This document shows positions 4,278 to 15,760 of a stretch of 32,303 nt of DNA, piece by piece. Position 1 is the stretch's first letter. Each line of letters opens with the position of its first letter. The stretch covers positions 1 through 32,303 of the forward strand of contig JANTHP010000012.1 of the NCBI GenBank assembly GCA_024762395.1. The letters run 5' to 3'. Source of the stretch: Anaerolineae bacterium (GTDB lineage: Bacteria > Chloroflexota > Anaerolineae > Promineifilales > Promineifilaceae). Below the pieces are notes generated by a model that made no database searches, was not told the origin of the DNA, and worked only from the letters and a program-made list of their open reading frames with translations. The translations under genes were made by a program, and so were the position numbers.

Positions 4278-5570
4278 TTACTCTTTCAAAAGCGCCGGCA
4301 GGAAGATATTCTCATTCAAAGGCGGCGGCGCATCCATGCCATGCGGGCCGCTGCCTGTCGGTTGGGTGGCATGGCAGACGGTGCAGGTTTCTAATGTACC
4401 GGCGTGTCCTTGCAAGCCGACAAACTTGATGCCGTCGCGCGGTTCGCGGCTGGGGGCGATGGCGTGGGGGCTGTCATGACACGCTTCGCAGTAGATGCCG
4501 CCATGCTCTTTGGACATGCGGTACAAGGGTTGATCCTGGTCATAAGCGCCGCTGTCGTGACAATCGTCGCAGCGGGGTTCGCTTAACCAGGGACTGTTGT
4601 TCTGTGAGACTTGTTCCATACCGCCGTGACAATCGTCGCATTCCATTCCGGACATGGACATTGTGCCGCGTAAACATTGGGTTTGCGGGCCTGGATGGCA
4701 GTTGTAACAACCGTCCAGGTTGTCGGTTACTTCGCCGGCGTGTTTGTTGTGGATGGCATTGGAGAGGCTGGGAATGCCGGGTAATCCGGGTTCACCCAGG
4801 GCATTGGATTCATGGCATTCGGCGCACAGGATGGGGCGGCGATCCATCAGGGGGCCTTCATGGCCGGGAGGATATTCGTCCATGTTTTCCATGTCGTGCA
4901 GGGTGAGGATATTGGTGTCTACGCGGCCGGTGGCGATGCCTTCGATGCCGCCGTCGTAATGGCAGTTGTCGCAGTTAAGTTCGGTGGAGACGGGGGCGAC
5001 GGTGGTGGTGCGGGCCAATTCGACGCCGGTTTCTACGTCATAGGCAATGACGGTGGCTAGCTGGTAGGGATCGCGGACGCCGGGCGCGCTGTCGCTGAAT
5101 TCGGTCAGGGGGATGCCTTCGGCTTCGAAATGGTCGCCGCGTAAATCCATTGTGTCGGCTAAGCCTTTGCCGGTTAAACCGACGTTTGGGGGCAGGTCTA
5201 CGCCGAATAGCTGCTGATCGTAGTCCCAAAAGTTGGATTTGCCGACGGAGTAGGTGTTGTCGGCGAATTCGTAGACGATTTCTACGCCTTCGGTGATGAT
5301 TTGGGGCGGGTCGCCGATTTGGACGAGCTGTGCCCAAAGGGTGTTGTAGGGGGGCAGGACGGCCAAGTCCTGAAAATCGGGGTTGTAGCAGTGCATGCCT
5401 AAATCGTTCCAACTGAGGATGATGTAGTCGCCGTCTGTTTGGGTGCTGGTGACGTCTGGCGGTTTGGCTTCGAGATCAGGTTGTGTGAGTACGGCCGTTC
5501 CCACTCCCACAACCACGATTATCATCAATGCCGCCATAAACCATTGTTTCCACTTCCTTAAATTTTCCAT
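4278..5570 (-). CDS. Seven-haem c-type cytochrome with N-terminal WNDLGMHC domain
   Basis: An exported 430-residue multihaem cytochrome, last gene of the probable operon 9189-4278. The start at 5570 (MENLRKWKQW) is preferred over the track's 5591 because GGAGG lies 8 bases before it. A signal anchor (FMAALMIIVVVGVGTAVL) is followed by a haem-free domain of about 150 residues with the conserved-looking WNDLGMHCYNPDF and NTLWAQLVQ segments. Seven CXXCH sites come next: CDNCH, CAECH, CYNCH, CDDCH, CDDCH, CEACH and CTVCH. A non-haem QCLRG segment sits between sites 3 and 4. The C-terminus ENIFLPALLKE resembles that of the surface protein at 9316-13026. Role inferred: extracytoplasmic electron carrier or terminal reductase receiving electrons from the neighbouring 18-haem protein. 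Confidence 0.9.
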   Translation of the reverse strand: MENLRKWKQWFMAALMIIVVVGVGTAVLTQPDLEAKPPDVTSTQTDGDYIILSWNDLGMHCYNPDFQDLAVLPPYNTLWAQLVQIGDPPQIITEGVEIVYEFADNTYSVGKSNFWDYDQQLFGVDLPPNVGLTGKGLADTMDLRGDHFEAEGIPLTEFSDSAPGVRDPYQLATVIAYDVETGVELARTTTVAPVSTELNCDNCHYDGGIEGIATGRVDTNILTLHDMENMDEYPPGHEGPLMDRRPILCAECHESNALGEPGLPGIPSLSNAIHNKHAGEVTDNLDGCYNCHPGPQTQCLRGTMSMSGMECDDCHGGMEQVSQNNSPWLSEPRCDDCHDSGAYDQDQPLYRMSKEHGGIYCEACHDSPHAIAPSREPRDGIKFVGLQGHAGTLETCTVCHATQPTGSGPHGMDAPPPLNENIFLPALLKE

Positions 5571-5620
5571 CTTAATTTCCTCCAAAATCAATGCTGGACA
5601 CTAGCGTTTTGTATCTATAC

Positions 5621-5635
5621 AAGTGATAATCACTT
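5621..5635. promoter_or_regulatory. 15-bp palindrome between the two cytochrome genes
   Basis: AAGTGATAATCACTT is a perfect palindrome around a central A. It lies between the 18-haem and 7-haem genes and could be a regulator site. The adjacent GTATCTATACA and the nearby GTGACTGTCACC are parts of dispersed repeats, so it may simply be repeat-derived. Confidence 0.35.
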
Positions 5636-5670
5636 CTTCCAAAGGTATTAGCCAAAGCCATGATGTTGGT

Positions 5671-5686
5671 AAGTGACTGTCACCTC
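5671..5686. repeat. Partial copy of the GTGACTGTCACC repeat
   Basis: AAGTGACTGTCACCTC here is identical to 15728-15743, the right arm of a longer inverted repeat. Only one arm is present at this locus. Confidence 0.7.
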
Positions 5687-5695
5687 CGGTTACCA

Positions 5696-7405
5696 TCAAT
5701 CATCGTCCGGACTGTCACCATTGGCGTGACAAGCGACGCAGTTATGGGAATAGTTACTTACTTCGTCATGTTCTGCATCCTCTTCGGCATAGTTATGACA
5801 GGCTGTACAAGTGTAACTGGCCGTATCGCCGCCAGGATGGCAGGTGGCGCAATCGCCATTTGCTCCTTCGTGGTTAAGTGGAAATGTGTGATCAAATGAA
5901 GCGCCATCCCATGTATCGGTGTTGTGGCAATCGGAACATTGACCGGCGAAGTGGTTAGACGGCCGTGCATGGCAAGACTGACAATCTGTTAACCCATTAT
6001 GGCTAAAGTTCACATTATGGAAATTGCCCGTGTCAACATGACAGGCACTGCATGCACCGCCGTAGTGATTGGCCGGGGGCGTATGACAAGCCGAACAATC
6101 CGTGCCGCCAATGGTGGCGTGGTTGAAGGTGGCATTGCTAAAGTTGCTGGTATCGCTGTGACAAGCAGTGCATGCGCCGCCGTAATGATTGGCCGGAGGT
6201 GCATGACAAGCCGAACAATCCGTGCCGCCGATGGTGGCGTGGTTAAAGGTGGCATTGCTAAAGTTGCTGGTATCGCTGTGGCAGGCAGTGCATGCGCCGC
6301 TGTAATGGCCTGCCGGCGCTGTGTGACAGGCTGCGCAATCCGTGCCGCCGATAGTGGCATGGTTAAAAGTGGCGTTACGGAAGTTGCTGGTATCGCTGTG
6401 GCAGGCGCTGCAAGCGCCGCTGTAATGGCCTGCCGGCGCTGTGTGGCAGGCTGCGCAATCTGTGCCGCCGATGGTAGCGTGGTTAAAAGTAGCATTGGCG
6501 AAGTTTTCGGTGTCGGAATGGCAGGCGCGGCATTCGCCATCATAATGGTTGGCTGGCGGCGTGTGGCAAGCCGCACAGTCGTTATCGCCGATGAAGCTGT
6601 GGTCGTAGTTGACGTCTTGCCACCCGCTGATATTATGACAAGTGGCGCAGTCGGCGCCATAAAGGCCATTGTGGGAATCATCCTGGGTGTGACAAGTAAT
6701 ACAGGCTGTATCTGTCCCCTGATATGAGCCGCCGCTGTGGCAAGTTTCGCAACTTATCTCGGCATGACCACCGCTCAACGGGAAAAAGCTGTGATCAACG
6801 GAACCTTCAGGAAAGGGAACCATGCGGGAATCCGCCAGGCTGTTGGTTCCGGAGGCTGTGGAAACAGTTGAATTGTCTGCAACAATCGGCCGTTCGTTTT
6901 CCGGGGCAATGGCGCTGATGGCGGCAGTGGGGTTGGGAGCGGTTAAGGCTAACTGAATGGATTGGGATTTGGCGATAAAAGCGAGTACGGCCGTTTCCCC
7001 TTCCCCATCTTTAATTCCATCCGCCAACGCAATCGCCCGCTCCGTTAGCGCCATCAGCCTGGCTTGCAAAGCAGGCTGTGTTTCTGCCGGCGCTGCGGTA
7101 ACGGCCGTTACCGCATGATCCAACGCCCTATCGAGGTAAGTCAAAGCAATTAACTCATGTTCTGTGCCCAGCGACGCTTCTAAATCATCCAGGCGGCGTT
7201 CCAATAAATTAAGAAAAACCGCAGCCCGCTCAGCCGCGTCAACGTTAAAAGCCAATCCCCACTGCTGCTCTGACCATAATTGAGCCGGAAACAACCAACT
7301 TCCCGGCAAAAACGGGGCTTTCCCAGCCATGACGTAGGTTGCAGTCCCGCCAACAACGCCAACAAACAACAACAAAGCGAATGAAATCAAAAAAAATCGT
7401 CGCAT
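5696..7405 (-). CDS. Eighteen-haem c-type cytochrome with DUF5667-like N-terminal domain
   Basis: A 569-residue exported cytochrome. An N-terminal membrane segment (FFLISFALLLFVGVVGG) is followed by a helical region (about 30-165, PFLPGSWLFPAQLWSEQQWGL... ERAAVFLNLLERRLDDL) that resembles DUF5667, a domain usually found without haems. After a linker there are 18 CXXCH sites. Their core is a 40-residue unit, NATFNHATIGGTDCxACHxxPAxHYxGACxACHSDTxNF, carrying two haems, repeated four times almost identically with diverged copies on either side. AGGTGG just before ATG 7405 supports the start. It lies 38 bp after the FAD oxidoreductase gene and before the 7-haem gene. Inferred role: periplasmic or cell-surface electron wire. 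The tail GDSPDDD is acidic. Confidence 0.92.
   Translation of the reverse strand: MRRFFLISFALLLFVGVVGGTATYVMAGKAPFLPGSWLFPAQLWSEQQWGLAFNVDAAERAAVFLNLLERRLDDLEASLGTEHELIALTYLDRALDHAVTAVTAAPAETQPALQARLMALTERAIALADGIKDGEGETAVLAFIAKSQSIQLALTAPNPTAAISAIAPENERPIVADNSTVSTASGTNSLADSRMVPFPEGSVDHSFFPLSGGHAEISCETCHSGGSYQGTDTACITCHTQDDSHNGLYGADCATCHNISGWQDVNYDHSFIGDNDCAACHTPPANHYDGECRACHSDTENFANATFNHATIGGTDCAACHTAPAGHYSGACSACHSDTSNFRNATFNHATIGGTDCAACHTAPAGHYSGACTACHSDTSNFSNATFNHATIGGTDCSACHAPPANHYGGACTACHSDTSNFSNATFNHATIGGTDCSACHTPPANHYGGACSACHVDTGNFHNVNFSHNGLTDCQSCHARPSNHFAGQCSDCHNTDTWDGASFDHTFPLNHEGANGDCATCHPGGDTASYTCTACHNYAEEDAEHDEVSNYSHNCVACHANGDSPDDD
6061..6540 (-). repeat. Four tandem 120-bp repeats encoding di-haem modules
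   Basis: Units 6061-6180, 6181-6300, 6301-6420 and 6421-6540 align without gaps at exactly 120 bp and are nearly identical at DNA level, with only scattered substitutions. The sequence before 6061 and after 6540 continues as diverged copies. Each unit encodes 40 residues with two CXXCH motifs. Confidence 0.92.
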
Positions 7406-7420
7406 ATTCCCACCTTTGAA

Positions 7421-7466
7421 GTAACTGGTAAACGGTAATCGGATTACTGCTTACTGCTTACTTTTA
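7421..7466. repeat. Heptamer array at the junction of FAD and cytochrome genes
   Basis: The sequence falls into 7-bp units AACTGGT/AAACGGT/AATCGGA/TTACTGC/TTACTGC/TTACTTT. It covers the stop codon of the FAD oxidoreductase, whose C-terminus KVSSKQ is encoded by the array. Confidence 0.75.
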
Positions 7467-8808
7467 CCGCCTGCTGTTTTTGATTCAATCCTATCCAGAA
7501 CTGTTGGATATTTTTCTTTAATGCCTGACCGCCAATAGAAAAATCAGGATGTACTTCGCGGAAATTAATTCGGTTTTCGATGATGTAACGCAGGGGATCG
7601 GCCGTGCTTTGGTCGCCAACGAGCAGCGCGCCTACCAGATAGTCGCCATCCATTACCAGCCGGACGGTATTGGCGCCATCTTCCGACCAGGCGCTGGCGT
7701 AATGGCGCGGGTAGGTGTACCAGACTTCGGATGAGCCGCGCGACAGGAATTGTAAAATCTCGGCCTCATCCGCATCGCCGTTACGCCGAGGATTGATTTG
7801 CCCCATTGTGGTGATATGAAGCCCGAAGAGCAGGCAGGCGTTGAACGGACTGCCTTTTTCATACTCGTGTTTCTCGCCGACCATGTTTAAGGCGGCCGCA
7901 TGTCCCTCGGCGACGGCGCTGGGCCATAAAATGTCGAGCATGTGCTGTTTTGTCCATGAGTCGTAGACTTGGGCGCAGTCGCCGGCGGCGTAGACGCCGC
8001 GCACGTTGCTCTGCATGGTTTGGTCTACCAGAATGGCCCGGTCGGTTTGGATGGGGGTGTTTTGAATGAGATCGAGTAACGGCCGTACCCCAATCGCTAC
8101 GCCCACAATGTTGCACTTAAATTCCTCCCCAGTTTTCAACCGCACTGCCCGCACCCGGCCGCGACGGTCGCCCAGAATCTCTGCAACTTCGGTGTTGTAA
8201 TGAATGGCGACGCCATGATGACGCATCCGCTCTTCCAAAATTTTGGCTTCCGTGTCGTTAAAAACCTTGCCCCACAGCCGGTCGCGGCGCAGGAAGTAGT
8301 GGGTGTCTACGCCATGATGGGCTAATCCCTCTGTCATTTCTAGCGCGGTGATGCCGCCGCCAATAACGATGGCGCGCCGCCGCCGTTTGGCCTGTTTCAT
8401 CAATGCTTTGGTTCCGTCCAGGGTGTCCAGGTAATGAACGCCTTTCAAATCTGCGCCGGGATAAGGGGGCGGTACGGCCCGCGCGCCGGTAGCGATGAGG
8501 AGGCGATCGTAGGGAAGGATACGGCCGTCTTTCAAACGCACTTCCTGCCTGTCCACATTGAGGGAAACGGCCGTGCCAAACAACAAATTCAACCGCATCT
8601 GCTGATACCACTCCGGCTGGCGGGCAAACACCTGCCGCCGGGGAATTTCATTGATGAAAAGATACGCCAAACCGGGTCGGGAATACATCGGATACGGCTC
8701 CGCGCTCACAATCGTCACGTCTCCAAACGGATCGTGTTGGCGAATGGTTTCCGCGGCCGTGACGCCGGCAGCGCCATTGCCAATGATTAAATAGCGAAGT
8801 GGTTGCAT
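7444..8808 (-). CDS. FAD/NAD(P)-dependent oxidoreductase
   Basis: A 454-residue two-dinucleotide-binding-domain flavoprotein of the nitrite-reductase/rubredoxin-reductase type. The FAD motif GNGAAG is at 10-15, ATGAR at 107-111, a second Rossmann motif GGGITALE at 150-157 for NAD(P)H, and the FAD-closing GVYAAGDCAQ at 271-280. No CXXC redox pair is seen, so a disulfide-reductase mechanism is unlikely; it should pass electrons one at a time to an Fe-S or haem partner. The adjacent 2[4Fe-4S] protein (54 bp upstream) and downstream multihaem cytochromes are natural partners. No export signal is visible, so it is probably cytoplasmic. The C-terminal residues come from a heptamer repeat. Confidence 0.9.
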   Translation of the reverse strand: MQPLRYLIIGNGAAGVTAAETIRQHDPFGDVTIVSAEPYPMYSRPGLAYLFINEIPRRQVFARQPEWYQQMRLNLLFGTAVSLNVDRQEVRLKDGRILPYDRLLIATGARAVPPPYPGADLKGVHYLDTLDGTKALMKQAKRRRRAIVIGGGITALEMTEGLAHHGVDTHYFLRRDRLWGKVFNDTEAKILEERMRHHGVAIHYNTEVAEILGDRRGRVRAVRLKTGEEFKCNIVGVAIGVRPLLDLIQNTPIQTDRAILVDQTMQSNVRGVYAAGDCAQVYDSWTKQHMLDILWPSAVAEGHAAALNMVGEKHEYEKGSPFNACLLFGLHITTMGQINPRRNGDADEAEILQFLSRGSSEVWYTYPRHYASAWSEDGANTVRLVMDGDYLVGALLVGDQSTADPLRYIIENRINFREVHPDFSIGGQALKKNIQQFWIGLNQKQQAVKVSSKQ

Positions 8809-8814
8809 ATTTTG

Positions 8815-8878
8815 GGGAAGATTGAAGATTGGAGACTGGTGATTTGAACCAATCTCTAATCTCTAATCTCCAGTTCCC
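8815..8878. repeat. Mirrored heptamer array
   Basis: Units such as AAGATTG/AAGATTG/GAGACTG on the left and CAATCTC/TAATCTC/TAATCTC/CAGTTCC on the right are inverse-complementary in style. The array fills the whole gap between the ferredoxin-like and FAD genes. Confidence 0.75.
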
Positions 8879-9189
8879 TCCAATACGAATCGGTTTACCA
8901 ACAATGAATGCACCTGCGTTTCCCATCGCAGCGTACCACGCGGACAAACATTGATGCAGTTGCCGCAGGTGATGCAGGTTGGATCGTCAACCGGGAGGCC
9001 GCGATGGGCGTAATCGCGCACAGGAATGCCTACCGGGCAGTTATAGCCGCAGACGCCGCACTGCACGCAGCGGCTGGCGTCGGGAACAACACGCCCCAAC
9101 CGGGCCAATTCATCCTGGGAAAGGACTGGCCGATCAGAATCTGAGGTTGGCGCTTTGAATAATGAACGAAAAAAGCTTTCTTTTGCCAT
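8863..9189 (-). CDS. Ferredoxin-like protein with two [4Fe-4S] clusters
   Basis: A 108-residue protein with CVQCGVCGYNCP (Cys 41, 44, 47, 51) and CITCGNCINVCP (Cys 72, 75, 78, 82), the classic pattern for two [4Fe-4S] clusters. The N-terminal 38 residues are polar and lack a signal peptide. The spacing between cluster motifs is wider than in bacterial ferredoxins and more like Fe-S subunits of heterodisulfide-reductase or oxidoreductase complexes. It is the first gene of the operon leading to the FAD oxidoreductase and two cytochromes, so it likely links flavin to the membrane or haem components. The C-terminus overlaps the heptamer array. The shared upstream motif (9208-9240) lies just before the gene. 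Confidence 0.88.
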   Translation of the reverse strand: MAKESFFRSLFKAPTSDSDRPVLSQDELARLGRVVPDASRCVQCGVCGYNCPVGIPVRDYAHRGLPVDDPTCITCGNCINVCPRGTLRWETQVHSLLVNRFVLEGTGD

Positions 9190-9207
9190 ATTAGAGTCGT
9201 GTATCTT

Positions 9208-9240
9208 TTCTATAGTCGCTTAAAGAGAGAAAAGGTAACG
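9208..9240 (-). promoter_or_regulatory. Shared upstream motif, copy 1 (before the ferredoxin-like gene)
   Basis: On the - strand the sequence begins CGTTACCTTTTCTCTC and ends TTTAAGCGACTATAG. A close match with one indel stands upstream of the cytochrome b gene (15605-15640). Both copies precede electron-transfer genes on the same strand, which suggests a common promoter or operator. Confidence 0.5.
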
Positions 9241-9273
9241 GGGCAATCATGAATGTCCAGTCCCACTGAAGAC

Positions 9274-9302
9274 CTGCGAGGTTTCTAGTATAAACCTCGC
9301 AG
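9274..9302. repeat. Hairpin CTGCGAGGTTT / AAACCTCGCAG
   Basis: Exact 11-bp arms around a 7-base loop, just past the stop codon of the surface-protein gene. There is no T-run, so it is a weak terminator at best. It looks like one more dispersed palindromic repeat. Confidence 0.7.
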
Positions 9303-9315
9303 ATCTCAATCAAAA

Positions 9316-12300
9316 CTATGGTTTGATTATCACCGGCAAAAATACCATAAACTCTCCAACAGAGATGTTCACTGCGGCTCCAACAGCCGCGTAATCAATG
9401 CCATCAGAGCCATTCCAGTTAAAACTGGTCATACCTTTCCAATCAGTGTCGGGAGTGAAGGTTAACAGATCCAAGTCAGCAACTGGAATCTCCTGGTTAA
9501 TGGTAACGGCCGTTCCATCCAAAGCCAGAATCCCATTAGCCGGTAATGAACTGATTAACACCATCGCCAGACTATCACCATCTACATCGGCAAACGCCTC
9601 TTCAAAATCGGTCGCCGTAAACATAACGACCGTATTGGTTTCAACACTAACATTAAAATTGGTTACCGTCGGTAAATCCTGAAGGGGATTCACGGTAATG
9701 ATAAATGTTTGCGGATCGGAGGTGTCGCGGCCCCCGTGGGCCGTACCGCCGTCATCCGACAATGTAACCGTTACCGTTGCGCTGCCATTGGCATCATCGG
9801 CCGGAGTATAGGTCAAATCGCCAGTTACGGCATCAATCGCCGGCGCGACGGCAAACAAGTCCCCATTGTCATTAACGGTGTGGAAGGTTAGCGTTTGTCC
9901 CGCCTCTCCCGGTGAACCAGGATCTATTTCCGTTGCCCAACCGGGTACAGTTTGGAGGCCAGCATCCTCATCAACCATCTGATCCGGACCAACGGTAAAA
10001 GTAGGCGGGTCATTGATAAAAGTTACGGTGATAGTAAACATTTGCGGCGCAGATGTATCAAAACCGCCATTTGCTGTGCCGCCATCATCGCTTAACGTGG
10101 CCGTCACCATCGCCGAGTCGTCACTACCGCCTACGGCCGTAAAAGTTAAATCGCCGCTTATGGGATCAATAGTCGGCAAAACAACAAAAAGGGCATCATT
10201 ATCTGTGACAATATCAAAAGCCAACATTTGCCCGCTTTCGTTTGTCGGCCCGGCGCTGATGTTAGCTGCCCAGGCGGGCACAGTTGTGCCGCTGGCCGCA
10301 AATTCTTCATCTACAAAGACGTCTGGGCCGCCGGTGAAAGAGGGTGCATCGTTAACGGCCGTTACACTAATCACAAACATCTGTGGATCCGACGTATCAT
10401 CACCGCCAAAATCTATACCCCCATCATCCTGCATCACTACCGTCACCGTCGCGCTGCCATTGGCATCTTCCGCTGGCATGTAAGTTAAGTTGCCGTTGGG
10501 ATCAATGGTCGGTAGTGTCGCAAATAACTCATCATTATCAGTTGAGACATTAAATTGCCATGTCTGACCTGACTCATTCGCTGGCCCGGTAGACATATTC
10601 ATCGCCCATCCAGGCTCAGTTTGTGCCCCTGCGTCCTCCAACACCGCCAGACCCGGCCCCCCGGTAAAAGAGGGTGGATCATTTACAGGATTCACTGTAA
10701 GCGTAAACACAGTAGGCGCTGAGGTATCATCGCCGCCGCCATTATCCGAGAGCGTTACCGTCACTATCGCCGTGCCAAACAAATCTGGCCCAGGCGTAAA
10801 TGTCAAATCGCCGCTAATTTCGCTGACGGTTGGCGCTGAAGTGAATAAGGCCAGATTATCAGTCGTCACATCAAAAGAGATAGTTTGGCTCTCGAACGGG
10901 CCTGCGGAAATATCAGTCGCCCATCCAGAAATAGTCGTAGCCCCATTGTCTTCATTTACGGCCACATTGCCGCCGCCAGTGAAAGAAGGCGGGTCGTTTA
11001 CGGCACTGATAGTGATGGTGAACGTCTGCGGCGCTGATGTGTCCACACCTCCGTTATCTGTTCCACCGTCATCATGCGCCCGCACCGATACGGCAGCAGC
11101 GCCGAAGCGGTTGGGGGCGGGGGTGTAAGTCAGGGCGCCGTTACCGTCTATCGTTGGCTGTACAGCGAATAAAACTGTGTTGTCGTTAGTTACCAGGAAA
11201 TCAATGGTTTGCCCACCTTCGTTTGGTCCTGGATCTATACTGGCAACAAGGCCAACAACTGACTGCGCTCCTGCATCTTCCGACACAAATTGGTCAGGGT
11301 TGACCATGAAAGTGAATGATGGCGCATCGTTAATGTTGGCAATGGTAATGTTGACTGAGGCGTCTGTGAGCGCATAGTCCAAACCGTCAAATCCATTCCA
11401 GCTAAAACTATCGTCGCCAAACCAATCGCCGTCTGGGGTATAGGTTAGATTATTCAGATTTGCAGTTGCAATTTCTTGAGCGACTGCAACATCCACACCA
11501 TTTAGCTGCAAAGTACCGTTGGCCGGCAGCGATGTGATTTGTACCTGGACCAAGCTGTCGCCATTGCTATCATCAAAGTTATTTACAAAGTCAACGGCCG
11601 TAAAACTAACCGCGCTATCTTCATCTCCCGACTTGAGTATATCGGTAAGCGTGGGCGGCATATTATGCGATGCGTACTGGGCTGCGGCGAAATTCATATT
11701 GCCAAGCGTTAGGGGAACATCTGTCAGCCCAACAACGACAATTTTGTCATTGTAAACCGCCACGTCATACGCTTCATCCTGGCTGTTGTTGTTACCTGCT
11801 CCAACAATAGAACCAATATCGGTGATCACAAATCCACTTGCGCCAAATGCTGTGTCTAGAGAGCCGTCAGCGTTGTAACGAACCAATTGGAAATCTTCAT
11901 GGGTTGTTGGATCAACACGGAACCCCGCGACGACGATTTTGTCGGTAGGTTGAACGGCTATGCCATTTACCCAATCATCGCCAGCATTAGCCGTAATAAC
12001 TGTACCGCCGCTGCCAAATGCGGTATCTAATACCCCATCAGCGCTGAACCGGGCCAGGCCAATATCTACCGCATTGGTAACATGGCCTGTTTCCACAATA
12101 CCGGCCAATACCAGGCTGCCATCTGATTGTTCACCGAGCCCATACGCCAAATCGTTGATATTGAGGGTAGGATTAAGCGAAACGTCCACGGTAGCAACGC
12201 CGCCAGCGCCAAATGTCGTTGTGTCCAGGCTGCCGCTGCTGGTGTAGCGAGCCAGGGCGAAGTCCTGATGATTGCCAGCAATATCTTCCGCTGTTCCACC

Positions 12301-13026
12301 CAGCACAATGCTGCCAGTCGCCTGAATGACGACACCATGCGCTTCGTCGGCATTGCCGGCGCCGTTAATGTCTGTGGTGTTGTAGCCTACGCTGTTGAAG
12401 GATGTGTCTAACGCGCCGGTATTTGCATCCAGCCGCGCGACAGCAAAATCTTTATCAACCGTTCCAGCTATAATGATTTTACCGTCATTCTGGATGGCAA
12501 CGGCCGTTGCTTCTGCTTCTGTTCCGCCTAAATTATGAGAAAAAATACCACCCGATCCAAAATTTGTGTCCAACGAGCCATCGGCATTATAACGAACGGC
12601 AACAAAGGCAACGGGTAAACCGGCCCCATTTTCCCTAAATCCCACCACTACAATTTGCCCGTCCGGTTCAATGGCAACGGCTTGCGCTCTGTCACGATTG
12701 GCGCTAACGGCCGTTACTGCGATTCCATCCCCGCTGAATGAAACATCCAAACTGCCATCGCCATTATACCGGACAACGCCAAAATTATTTTCACTTTCGC
12801 CAACTGACACGACTTTACCATCGGATTGAACAGCAACGCCAAAAGCCATATCGTTTGTGACGCTAAAATCAGTGTAAGTCACACCATCGCCACTGAATGT
12901 CGTGTCGAGGTCCCCCGGCGAAGCGGCTTTAACGATGCTAAATAAACCAAGAACGATAATCCCTACAAACGCAAAAACAAGTACAGGGTACCGCTTCGTC
13001 CATTGAGCAAATAAATTGTGCTTCAT
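9316..13026 (-). CDS. Giant secreted surface protein: delta-60 beta-propeller repeats plus cadherin/Ig-like modules
   Basis: A 1236-residue exported protein. An N-terminal signal (YPVLVFAFVGIIVLGLFSIVKA) leads to about 400 residues with seven delta-60 style repeats (GSLDTxFGxGG spaced about 55-70 residues), usually modelled as a beta-propeller. Next comes a module containing SLPANGTLQLNG, then five modules of about 100 residues starting NDxPSFT and rich in SEDAG, DDGGxDxGG and TFTITV, then a second copy of the first module type (SLPANGILALDG). The C-terminus reads EFMVFLPVIIKP. AGGAG before ATG 13026 supports the start. It lies between the two electron-transfer operons on the same strand. Likely extracellular and adhesive or matrix-forming; no enzyme motif was seen. 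Asp-rich loops suggest calcium binding. Confidence 0.88.
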   Translation of the reverse strand: MKHNLFAQWTKRYPVLVFAFVGIIVLGLFSIVKAASPGDLDTTFSGDGVTYTDFSVTNDMAFGVAVQSDGKVVSVGESENNFGVVRYNGDGSLDVSFSGDGIAVTAVSANRDRAQAVAIEPDGQIVVVGFRENGAGLPVAFVAVRYNADGSLDTNFGSGGIFSHNLGGTEAEATAVAIQNDGKIIIAGTVDKDFAVARLDANTGALDTSFNSVGYNTTDINGAGNADEAHGVVIQATGSIVLGGTAEDIAGNHQDFALARYTSSGSLDTTTFGAGGVATVDVSLNPTLNINDLAYGLGEQSDGSLVLAGIVETGHVTNAVDIGLARFSADGVLDTAFGSGGTVITANAGDDWVNGIAVQPTDKIVVAGFRVDPTTHEDFQLVRYNADGSLDTAFGASGFVITDIGSIVGAGNNNSQDEAYDVAVYNDKIVVVGLTDVPLTLGNMNFAAAQYASHNMPPTLTDILKSGDEDSAVSFTAVDFVNNFDDSNGDSLVQVQITSLPANGTLQLNGVDVAVAQEIATANLNNLTYTPDGDWFGDDSFSWNGFDGLDYALTDASVNITIANINDAPSFTFMVNPDQFVSEDAGAQSVVGLVASIDPGPNEGGQTIDFLVTNDNTVLFAVQPTIDGNGALTYTPAPNRFGAAAVSVRAHDDGGTDNGGVDTSAPQTFTITISAVNDPPSFTGGGNVAVNEDNGATTISGWATDISAGPFESQTISFDVTTDNLALFTSAPTVSEISGDLTFTPGPDLFGTAIVTVTLSDNGGGDDTSAPTVFTLTVNPVNDPPSFTGGPGLAVLEDAGAQTEPGWAMNMSTGPANESGQTWQFNVSTDNDELFATLPTIDPNGNLTYMPAEDANGSATVTVVMQDDGGIDFGGDDTSDPQMFVISVTAVNDAPSFTGGPDVFVDEEFAASGTTVPAWAANISAGPTNESGQMLAFDIVTDNDALFVVLPTIDPISGDLTFTAVGGSDDSAMVTATLSDDGGTANGGFDTSAPQMFTITVTFINDPPTFTVGPDQMVDEDAGLQTVPGWATEIDPGSPGEAGQTLTFHTVNDNGDLFAVAPAIDAVTGDLTYTPADDANGSATVTVTLSDDGGTAHGGRDTSDPQTFIITVNPLQDLPTVTNFNVSVETNTVVMFTATDFEEAFADVDGDSLAMVLISSLPANGILALDGTAVTINQEIPVADLDLLTFTPDTDWKGMTSFNWNGSDGIDYAAVGAAVNISVGEFMVFLPVIIKP

Positions 13027-13088
13027 TTTTTCTCCTAGTTTTACTAAAAACGAGCATGGTTCAGTTCTTGAACAGCGTATCTTTACAA

Positions 13089-13187
13089 ATCACGAATACC
13101 GTGAATAAGCGAATAGCGCGAATTTCTCGATAAATAATTCGCTTTATTCGACCACTTGAGGCATTCGCGTTCAAAAATTTGTAAAGA
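13089..13187. repeat. Inverted repeat with GCGAAT-rich interior
   Basis: TCTTTACAAAT near the left end and ATTTGTAAAGA near the right end are exact inverse complements about 75 bp apart. Between them are repeated GCGAAT/CGAATA words. It is probably a dispersed non-coding element filling the space between the 18-haem gene and the surface-protein gene. Confidence 0.65.
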
Positions 13188-13201
13188 ACCAATAGTTGTC
13201 A

Positions 13202-14683
13202 TCAATCGCCCTCTTGACCGGTAGGATGACAAGCAGCGCAATCGGCAAGTTCCTCCAAGCTGATACTTTCTTCCAAATGTTTACGTTCTGTTTCAGCCGG
13301 ATCATGTTCGTGGCAGCCGTAGCAGGTGTACTGGGTATACGTGGCTGTGTGGCAGGTTTCGCAAGCCAATTCGCCCTGTTCACCATGATCAAGTGGGAAG
13401 CTGTGGTAGGTAAGTTGAGCCGGCTGCCAGGCAACGGCCGTATGACAATTTTCACACGTCAGGCCAAACAATCCGGCATGAATCGCCGGTTCATCATGAC
13501 AAGCGGCGCATTCACCCGATGTACCGGCAAACACCCGATCAACGTGGCACGCCGTGCATTCAATGGCGGCGTGCCGCCCGGCCAACGGCCATACAACCGC
13601 GTGATCAAAATTAGCCATCGCGCCCGTTCCATCATGGCAGCCCATACAATCATCGCCGAATTGAGCCGAGTGATTGGCAACAAATTGGGCGTCAGCCTGG
13701 GCATGACAATCGGCGCACTGGGCGTTGGTATGCTCAAACTGTTCGCCGCCATGATGACATGTCTGGCAAGTAAAAGGTGTGTTATCAAAGTTGGTTGTGT
13801 GTTTAACCAAACTAAAATTGGTCGTGATGGCATGATCAAACGGTTGACCGTCCATCATGGCCGGCAGCCAGCCGTCAGGCGTATGGCATTCCGCGCAGTT
13901 GGTCGTAAATAATCCTTGATGGGCTTCCGGCTCTTGATGACAGCCAACACATTCCTGAGGCGTTCCTTCAAATGTTCCATCCATATGACAGCTTTCGCAC
14001 GCTGTTTGTTGGTGGACGCCGGTGAGGGCAAAAATTTGCTCATGATCAGCCGGGGTAAACTGGGCCATTGTGTCTAAACCGTCATGGCAAGCCAAACAAT
14101 CGTCGCCATAAGCTGCGCGGTGACGGCTCATGAAGGGTTGATCGGCCGTTTGGTGGCAGTCGGCGCAGGCGGCCGGGGCGACGGTAAAATCGGTGTCGCT
14201 GACGTGGCATTCGGTACAATTGAGGGTCAATCCATCGTAATTACGTGTATGTTTGGCCAGGCTGAAGTGTGTTAGATCGTGGTTGAAACCATCCAGGGCG
14301 ATGGTTAGCAAGTTAAAATCGCGGCCCTGGTGGTCAAGATGACATTCGGCGCACATGTCGGCGGCCTGTAAACGGCCGTGTACCCCCTCCCCCATCTGCC
14401 TTTCCTGCTTCACAGATTCATGACATACCTCGCAGCGCGCCGCCTCAACCCCTTTGAACGGCGTGTGACAATAACTGCAATCACCGCCAAATTCAGCATG
14501 ATCGAAAAAACCGCCCGCCGGCTGACCGCTGTGATTAACCGCCGATAAATCACCCGGACTAAACGCCCGCCCGCCTGTTAAATAGACAACGACGGCCAAA
14601 ACGCCTGCCAAAATCAAAGTGGAAATAATCGCCACTGGCGAAAAAATTGGATGCTGTCGTTCAACAAGCGTGTGTTGTCTCAT
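13202..14683 (-). CDS. Eighteen-haem c-type cytochrome, coupled to cytochrome b
   Basis: A 493-residue membrane-anchored multihaem protein. The ORF-track start (14932) is rejected: ATG 14683 forms an ATGA overlap with the stop of the preceding cytochrome b gene, and MRQHTLVERQHPIFS is followed directly by one membrane helix (VAIISTLILAGVLAVVVYLTG). It has 18 CXXCH sites, from CSYCH to the terminal CAACHPTGQEGD. Many distal His residues and a weak internal repeat (FxHxxTxFSLxKHTxNYD... CTECH) suggest bis-His ligation. It resembles cytochrome c3/c7-type modular proteins. Translational coupling implies a tight complex with the membrane subunit, so it is the likely electron acceptor from the quinone pool. 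Confidence 0.92.
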   Translation of the reverse strand: MRQHTLVERQHPIFSPVAIISTLILAGVLAVVVYLTGGRAFSPGDLSAVNHSGQPAGGFFDHAEFGGDCSYCHTPFKGVEAARCEVCHESVKQERQMGEGVHGRLQAADMCAECHLDHQGRDFNLLTIALDGFNHDLTHFSLAKHTRNYDGLTLNCTECHVSDTDFTVAPAACADCHQTADQPFMSRHRAAYGDDCLACHDGLDTMAQFTPADHEQIFALTGVHQQTACESCHMDGTFEGTPQECVGCHQEPEAHQGLFTTNCAECHTPDGWLPAMMDGQPFDHAITTNFSLVKHTTNFDNTPFTCQTCHHGGEQFEHTNAQCADCHAQADAQFVANHSAQFGDDCMGCHDGTGAMANFDHAVVWPLAGRHAAIECTACHVDRVFAGTSGECAACHDEPAIHAGLFGLTCENCHTAVAWQPAQLTYHSFPLDHGEQGELACETCHTATYTQYTCYGCHEHDPAETERKHLEESISLEELADCAACHPTGQEGD

Positions 14684-15546
14684 TGAAAAAGCCCCGCCCG
14701 AAAGTAAAACGTAGCCACAACATGAATGGTCGCGGAAAAGAAAAGCGTCAAGCCCACCGGTACATGCAAAATATGCCAGTAACGAAGCAGCCGTCGGGCG
14801 GCGTCCAGCATTTCCGCTTGACGATCCAGTTCTCGTTTTTGGCTGAGGAGTTGACTCAATTGGCGTCGCTGCGATTCTTCTATCTGGTCTAATTGCCGTA
14901 TGGCCCGGTTTAGCCGCCGCCGGTAACGCCATTGGTAATAGGAACGACCGAATACGGTCAAAAGCGGATTACGCCGGTCGTTACGCCGGCTTAGTTCGGC
15001 AATGGTTTGTTGAACTTGGGCCGATTTATGAGCCTGGAATTGGGAAACGGCCGTTTGCAATTTCCCTGCCTCCGCTGCAATCTGGCTGCGCGAAGCCGCC
15101 ACCCCCGTCAACGAACGCGGCAGCGCCGTGTACAAATACCGCCCCACAAATCCACTGCCCGCCACAATCACCGTCAACAACATACTCACCCCGGCCAGCC
15201 CCCGAAACTGCAGCCCCGTGTGCATCAACACCATAAACGGCCCCACAATTCCCGTAACAATGTGAAATGAAAGCCAATAGCGCACCGGTCCCGCCCAACT
15301 CAGCAGGCGGGTACGTTTACGCAAACTGTACAACACCTCCGTCATAACCATGAGGAGCATGCCGATAATGCCCAACCAATGTCCAAACGGGTGGCCGCCG
15401 CGCGGTTCGGCCAGCAGTTCATAAGCGATGTAAACACCACTGAGGACAAAGAGTACAAAAAAACTTATTTCCAATTCATAGGGTTTTTTCGCGCCGATGG
15501 CAGCCGGCTTGAATTCGGGGCGGTTTGAGAATAAGGATCGCGTCAT
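14680..15546 (-). CDS. Membrane cytochrome b-like subunit with cytoplasmic coiled coil
   Basis: A 288-residue integral membrane protein. Start 15546 (MTRSLFSNRP) is preferred to 15591 because it has GAAAGGCAGGA upstream. About five hydrophobic helices are visible: 25-45, 57-75, 90-110, 118-140 and 258-280. His residues sit in or beside them (H56, H95, H109, H258, H261, H275), enough for one or two bis-His b haems. Residues 153-255 are a charged, Gln/Arg-rich helical segment, probably a coiled coil. It is coupled by ATGA to the 18-haem gene. Likely role: quinol oxidation or transmembrane electron transfer to the haem protein. No named family is recognised with certainty, and haem b binding is inferred. 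Confidence 0.72.
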   Translation of the reverse strand: MTRSLFSNRPEFKPAAIGAKKPYELEISFFVLFVLSGVYIAYELLAEPRGGHPFGHWLGIIGMLLMVMTEVLYSLRKRTRLLSWAGPVRYWLSFHIVTGIVGPFMVLMHTGLQFRGLAGVSMLLTVIVAGSGFVGRYLYTALPRSLTGVAASRSQIAAEAGKLQTAVSQFQAHKSAQVQQTIAELSRRNDRRNPLLTVFGRSYYQWRYRRRLNRAIRQLDQIEESQRRQLSQLLSQKRELDRQAEMLDAARRLLRYWHILHVPVGLTLFFSATIHVVATFYFRAGLFQ

Positions 15547-15604
15547 TTTCCTGCCTTTCCGATGGTCTGAATCCATGCAACAATGGCCCATTCCGGGCGC
15601 ACTT

Positions 15605-15640
15605 TTTGTTTAGTCGCTTTAAGGGGGTAAAAAGTAACGA
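15605..15640 (-). promoter_or_regulatory. Shared upstream motif, copy 2 (before the cytochrome b gene)
   Basis: On the - strand the sequence runs from CGTTACTTTTTACCCCC to TTAAAGCGACTAAAC, matching the motif at 9208-9240 with one indel and a few substitutions. It lies about 60 bases before the cytochrome b start. Confidence 0.5.
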
Positions 15641-15662: not shown

Positions 15663-15760
15663 AAACGTAACTACTAAGGTGACAGTCACTTTCTCCAGAG
15701 GCAATAGTCATAACAAATCGCTATATTAAGTGACTGTCACCTCTGAGACTTAGTAGTTAC
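15663..15760. repeat. Long inverted repeat (possible MITE-like element)
   Basis: The left arm GTAACTACTAAG + GTGACAGTCACTT and the right arm AAGTGACTGTCAC + CTTAGTAGTTAC are inverse complements, apart from an 8-base insertion (about CTCTGAGA) in the right arm. About 40 bp separates them. Pieces recur at 5671-5686 and near 11-28. Confidence 0.75.

Follow-up and report, generated by a model that had tools for sequence, protein, structure and literature searches.

A group of five genes in the Chloroflexota reads, on balance, as a transmembrane conduit that would take electrons from NAD(P)H, with NADPH the probable donor, and pass them to an extracellular or cell-wall chain of haems. As delimited by sequence comparison between relatives, the conserved unit consists of the genes for a cytochrome b (CYTB), two multihaem cytochromes (MHC-b and MHC-a), an iron-sulfur protein (FDX) and a flavoprotein (FAD). 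The unit is real and conserved, and is apparently an unnamed, new arrangement of known parts. A search of the open-access literature found no named 18-haem/cytochrome b unit in Chloroflexota, and profile tests likewise gave no named complex, in line with a preliminary description of this DNA that had recognised none. The window, meaning the whole stretch of 32,303 nucleotides analysed here, is an entire contig that carries the gene set on its minus strand, with the transcription order CYTB, MHC-b, giant repeat protein, FDX, FAD, MHC-a, and HEME7 (Table 1).

Table 1. Positions and descriptions of the genes and of one dispersed palindrome in the window.
Feature	Position	Strand	Description
CYTB	14680..15546	-	Di-haem cytochrome b of the membrane with five helices, TM4 and TM5 being separated by a long coiled coil; ORF may reach 15591
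MHC-b	13202..14683	-	Membrane-anchored 18-haem c7/c3-type cytochrome; 18 CXXCH, PF14522 E 1.7e-22
Giant delta-60/tandem-95 repeat protein	9316..13026	-	At this site in this genome only
Dispersed palindrome	9270..9306	.	18-nt arms; directly downstream of the giant gene
FDX	8863..9189	-	Cytoplasmic-looking 2[4Fe-4S] protein; Fer4_7 E 2e-11
FAD	7444..8808	-	AorC/PadH/NirB-like pyridine nucleotide oxidoreductase, probably NADPH-using; Pyr_redox_2 E 3e-56
MHC-a	5696..7405	-	Predicted secreted 18-haem cytochrome, mostly tandem two-haem 40-residue units
HEME7	4278..5570	-	Accessory 7-haem surface-type cytochrome outside the conserved unit

Motif counting found 18 CXXCH sites in each of MHC-b and MHC-a and 7 in the minus-strand frame at 4278-5591 that holds HEME7, the same numbers as in the preliminary description, and no CX3CH or CX4CH motif in the three haem proteins. 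The ATGA overlap reported there between the cytochrome b gene and an 18-haem gene was also confirmed, the letters at 14680-14683 being common to the CYTB stop codon and the MHC-b ATG, and the cytoplasmic look attributed to the Fe-S and FAD proteins was borne out, since neither has a signal or membrane helix in its own sequence. The likely start of HEME7 is the ATG at 5570 (430 aa, with GGAGG 8 nt upstream) rather than the TTG at 5591, and that of CYTB is the ATG at 15546, which matches the start in relatives, rather than the ATG at 15591. All three haem proteins score over the PF14522 cut-off (7.3e-16 for MHC-a and 2.1e-12 for HEME7, with the MHC-b value in Table 1), and profile tests (PF14522/PF14537/PF02085) thus assign them to the c7/c3-type multihaem cytochromes. 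Cytochrome c assembly (PF01578) genes are encoded in the genome.

The contiguous order CYTB-MHCb-FDX-FAD-MHCa was found at a locus of the same genus (L064) and at three loci of the same family (L065, L066, and L067). At the same-genus locus, where the giant gene is missing, the spacing from MHC-b to FDX is just 224 bp. An alternative order, FDX-FAD-CYTB-MHC, occurs in Anaerolineaceae-like and Oscillochloris-like genomes, and one genome of the same genus (G301) contains both orders with one copy each (L064 and L074). In the genome scan, FAD, FDX, and a multihaem gene lay on the same strand and no more than 5 kb from CYTB at 41 of the 42 loci where CYTB is flanked by 3.5 kb or more on either side. 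The preliminary description had treated a six-gene set as linked and had let its proposal depend on co-occurrence in relatives; the core of five genes is indeed linked and kept at these loci, whereas the giant adhesin and HEME7 are not kept and represent local additions. Its suggestion of a linked electron-transfer set that might connect NAD(P)H with an extracytoplasmic acceptor is supported. CYTB homologues were detected in 43 of the 301 sampled genomes of the phylum and in 21 of the 52 family genomes, and the named relatives in the scan belong to the Anaerolineae, Ardenticatenaceae, Oscillochloris, and other Chloroflexota, with two Planctomycetes among the best 80. The module is carried by Oscillochloris, Chloroploca, and Viridilinea. 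FAD/Fe-S/CYTB-like trios without multihaem genes are present in other Chloroflexota families (L046 and L047) and are perhaps an ancestral or quinone-linked form.

Four histidines of CYTB (H110, H124, H276, and H290) are invariant across 71 sequences and form two HX13H pairs. Such spacing is classically associated, as in bc1 and NOX, with a stack of two bis-His haems that spans the membrane. The AlphaFold2 model (pLDDT 84.7) contains helices at residues 39-60, 68-93, 103-124, and 132-155, followed by a long last helix at 239-298. According to the positive-inside rule, the RKRTR loop that follows helix 2 would face the cytoplasm, as would the highly basic region of the coiled coil, and the C terminus would lie outside and adjoin MHC-b; the coiled coil is missing in the Anaerolineaceae-like versions. 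No convincing Pfam or NCBIfam match was obtained for the CYTB of the window. The cytochrome b561/Ni-hydrogenase cytochrome b family (PF01292) is weakly matched by 31 of the 71 relatives (E 0.05 or better, best 3.5e-6), with the window protein remaining without a match, while a single member weakly matches Ferric_reduct and no bc1/b6 family appears among the Pfam matches listed for CYTB. A Foldseek search with the model returned nothing at E 0.001 or better. The structural matches from VIA-align, which include cytochromes b561 and b6f (b6f Z about 7, 10-12% identity), fall inside helical-bundle noise, and the PDB sequences that matched CYTB were short chance matches to the coiled coil.

In MHC-b and 17 relatives (42-69% identity), all 18 CXXCH motifs are invariant, and exactly 18 non-motif histidines are invariant as well (H62, 102, 118, 135, 145, 188, 214, 224, 255, 284, 295, 338, 361, 371, 402, 427, 433, and 469), a conservation that excludes chance for this protein and, with its equal numbers, is the expectation if all MHC-b haems are bis-His with no catalytic haem among them. 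The protein has a single N-terminal helix, at about residues 11-35, which is retained. Its structural model is poor (pLDDT 56.7) and too weak for haem geometry, and its sole match among PDB sequences, a weak one to ACIII subunit A, was not accepted as a relative.

The N terminus of MHC-a reads as a probable cleavable signal (VMA-G), and the middle of the gene (6039-6497) consists of 3.8 tandem copies of a 120-bp repeat (87% matches), in which each 40-residue unit supplies two CXXCH and two other histidines that are candidate ligands. The protein averages 19.8 residues per haem, below the values quoted for MtrA (25.1) and the Burkholderiales proteins (22.4-23.4), which may be counted over whole proteins (PMC7399161). 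The haem-free N-terminal part (residues 33-91, 7133-7309) weakly matches DUF5667 (E 0.079) and is a possible docking domain. A PDB sequence search with MHC-a gave no relative. Across relatives, haem number appears to change in steps, mostly of three for MHC-b and of two for MHC-a. Of 70 complete CYTB-linked proteins, 54 have a haem count that is a multiple of three, and 17 of 19 FAD-linked ones have an even count (naive binomial values 8e-14 and 4e-4, calculated for relatives that are not independent). Among 21 sister pairs on a quick CYTB tree, haem number is unequal in 10, with a difference of 3 or 6 for five pairs and of 1, 2, 8, or 10 for the remainder. Owing to the non-independence of relatives and these mixed differences, the pattern of threes and twos, clear in the counts, is only suggestive for single events. 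Variation in haem number is already known for Chloroflexi cytochromes, and the Anaerolineales have many large cytochromes of varying haem number (PMC7399161). Single cytochromes with 44, 42, and 47 CXXCH lie in or beside the module at other loci (L113:13958-17206, L069:2566-5436, and L049:11971-15438, respectively).

The best solved relative of FAD is AorC (8c0z_E, E 6e-51), and PadH is the nearest curated family, below its cut-off (206 bits vs 475). Where the second beta strand of the second Rossmann fold ends, AorC has an NAD-type Glu; the FAD family has Leu-Arg instead, and 90% or more of 77 sequences share the Arg (R174). An Arg at this position resembles glutathione reductase and is an NADPH-type feature. 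From the Leu and R174 in place of the AorC Glu, we infer that FAD probably uses NADPH. In FDX, all eight cluster Cys, arranged in two 4Fe-4S motifs, are at least 90% conserved among 75 sequences. The terminal ferredoxin cluster of AorC lies 9.5 A from FAD (PMC10413684), a geometry that offers, by analogy, a precedent for the FAD-FDX pair.

Several known systems share parts of this arrangement. AorABC of Aromatoleum and the phenylglyoxylate dehydrogenase PadEFGHI likewise contain a FAD subunit, AorC or PadH, that works with a ferredoxin-like partner to move electrons to or from NAD; unlike them, the unit couples its FAD protein to cytochrome b and c haems, and no gene for a tungsten or thiamine catalytic subunit was found among the ORFs read in the window. 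In sulfate reducers, the Hmc, Nhc, and Ohc complexes contain a multihaem c3-like cytochrome, octa- or nona-haem in Ohc and Nhc, an Fe-S protein, and a membrane subunit, with no FAD/NAD(P)H arm. The unit resembles them in these three components and in a weak match to the HmcA profile, which at 27.8 bits against a cut-off of 400 led to the rejection of an HmcA identity, and it differs in its conserved FAD gene and in the cytoplasmic look of its Fe-S and FAD proteins. The Geobacter inner-membrane proteins CbcL and ImcH take electrons from quinol and pass them to c haems for extracellular respiration, CbcL fusing its b and c parts. The likeness is a membrane part that hands electrons to c haems, and the difference is the flavoprotein input of the unit; a CbcL-type fused b/c cytochrome was dismissed as an identification, the b and c parts being separate genes in the window and in relatives. 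In NADPH oxidase and ferric reductase, electrons pass from NAD(P)H through FAD and two stacked b haems to the outside, with HX13-14H spacing. The proposed route and His spacing of the unit are alike, whereas its polypeptides are separate and a ferredoxin is placed between FAD and haem. The large cytochromes of the Anaerolineales (PMC7399161, Fig. 5) are also from Chloroflexi and have high haem numbers that differ between close relatives; the accessible part of that paper gives neither a link to an Fe-S/FAD/cytochrome b unit nor a pattern of threes and twos.

The giant protein combines delta-60/DUF5122 propeller repeats with tandem-95/cadherin repeats, and its gene has a GC content of 0.506, against 0.54-0.57 around it. 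The preliminary description had suggested that, as an adhesin in one island with HEME7, it could hold the cytochromes at the surface. These genes are neighbours in the window; however, nothing matches the giant gene at the 80 loci of the genome scan, it is also missing from the same-genus locus, and the same-genus genome G302 lacks HEME7 at this site, with a 242-bp gap instead. Neither is therefore part of the machine, and the synteny leads us to reject the adhesin as a surface holder and leaves a joint machine hardly probable at all. The distribution of HEME7 is patchy, also within the order, with matches in 32 of 396 class genomes, and in genome G303 it lies on a different contig from the module. 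A PDB sequence search with HEME7 gave no relative. In its length of 430 aa, its seven CXXCH, and an N-terminal helix from residue 8, the features on which alone the two were compared, HEME7 is like ARMA_0580, a heptahaem cytochrome detected at the surface of Ardenticatena maritima (PMC5808234), and it stands outside the conserved unit.

A C-terminal sorting motif, guessed from the FLPVIIKP end of the giant protein, was discarded as rare, being present in 3 of 1077 ORFs; two other ORFs at the loci analysed have a comparable hydrophobic end. The palindrome downstream of the giant gene (GACCTGCGAGGTTT...AAACCTCGCAG) is the second dispersed one and occupies eight genome sites. The other is a MITE-like palindromic element of ~95 bp with AGGTGACAGTCACTT arms, complete at 15667-15760 and represented by a single arm at 5671-5685. 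Exact copies of the arm number 208 forward and 202 reverse in the 4.9-Mb genome, compared with 2-3 per strand in two same-genus genomes and no more than 7 in sampled family mates; this abundance here and scarcity in relatives point to a recent burst of the element in this genome. Other multihaem gene groups are found elsewhere in the genome (L178-L182, on contigs C7, C55, C90, C138, and C117), including an operon like that of alternative complex III (ACIII) on C7 and proteins with 7 to 14 haems, one of which is fused to a membrane part.

In the proposed route, NADPH would reduce FAD, and the electrons would then pass singly through the two clusters of FDX, which would dock on CYTB at its coiled coil, on the cytoplasmic side, and at its basic loops. 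The membrane would be crossed via two stacked b haems, ligated by H110/H276 on the inside and H124/H290 on the outside, after which electrons would enter the anchored MHC-b, whose gene appears to be translationally coupled to CYTB. MHC-b would pass them to MHC-a, in which the haem chain could be lengthened or shortened by two-haem repeats and, in a cell with one membrane, could extend across the wall as far as an acceptor outside the cell. Such outward flow without proton pumping would make the unit an electron outlet and not a coupling site. Porin-cytochrome conduits (MtrCAB) were not found in Anaerolineales by a published search (PMC7399161). In the Chloroflexota isolate Ardenticatena maritima, which has been shown to respire electrodes, seven is the largest number of haems in any protein (PMC5808234), so electrode respiration there does not require the unit, and the phylum has more than this one route.

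Other readings of the unit differ in the partner of CYTB or in the direction of flow. CYTB might have a menaquinone site, at which FAD and FDX reduce quinone or from which quinol feeds the c haems, with electrons then travelling via the quinone pool instead of along a direct path. Many small di-haem b proteins bind quinone, and the trios that lack multihaem genes would need another acceptor for their CYTB, which may therefore also serve quinone or another partner; the weak PF01292 matches of CYTB members agree with this. However, the four invariant histidines are accounted for by two haems in a complete ladder, and a quinone-site signature could not be identified in CYTB, so that a quinone-linked complex retains a minor though appreciable probability.

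A haem chain could equally end short of true extracellular transfer, with the haem proteins serving a soluble extracytoplasmic acceptor or storing charge. A capacitor function has been put forward for large multihaem proteins (PMC7399161), and the other multihaem groups of the genome, which include octahaem proteins, could be acceptors; against this, no conserved terminal reductase gene was seen beside the unit in an overall look at the neighbours at relative loci, and we regard such a role as unlikely. If the chain ran inward instead, extracellular Fe(II), minerals, or partner cells would supply the electrons for making NADPH, which would suit both the NADPH-type motif, as one fitting biosynthesis, and the presence of the module in Oscillochloris, Chloroploca, and Viridilinea, phototrophic genera that need reductant. 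The potential of bis-His c haems, however, usually lies above that of NADPH, which makes outward flow the downhill one, and electron uptake is distinctly improbable. The outward conduit thus remains the favoured reading. Its broadest form, a widespread unnamed Chloroflexota complex that would carry electrons from NADPH to extracellular haem wires, bypass the quinone pool, and evolve in length by units of two or three haems, is possible and is advanced tentatively.

Sediments, digesters, and sludge abound in Chloroflexota, a phylum in which extracellular electron transfer is suspected. The route by which electrons would leave their probably single-membrane cells is a question that a defined conserved unit makes biochemically testable. 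In addition, haem number that changes unit by unit, with two CXXCH and two candidate ligand His in each MHC-a repeat, may provide a natural series of wire lengths for biophysics.
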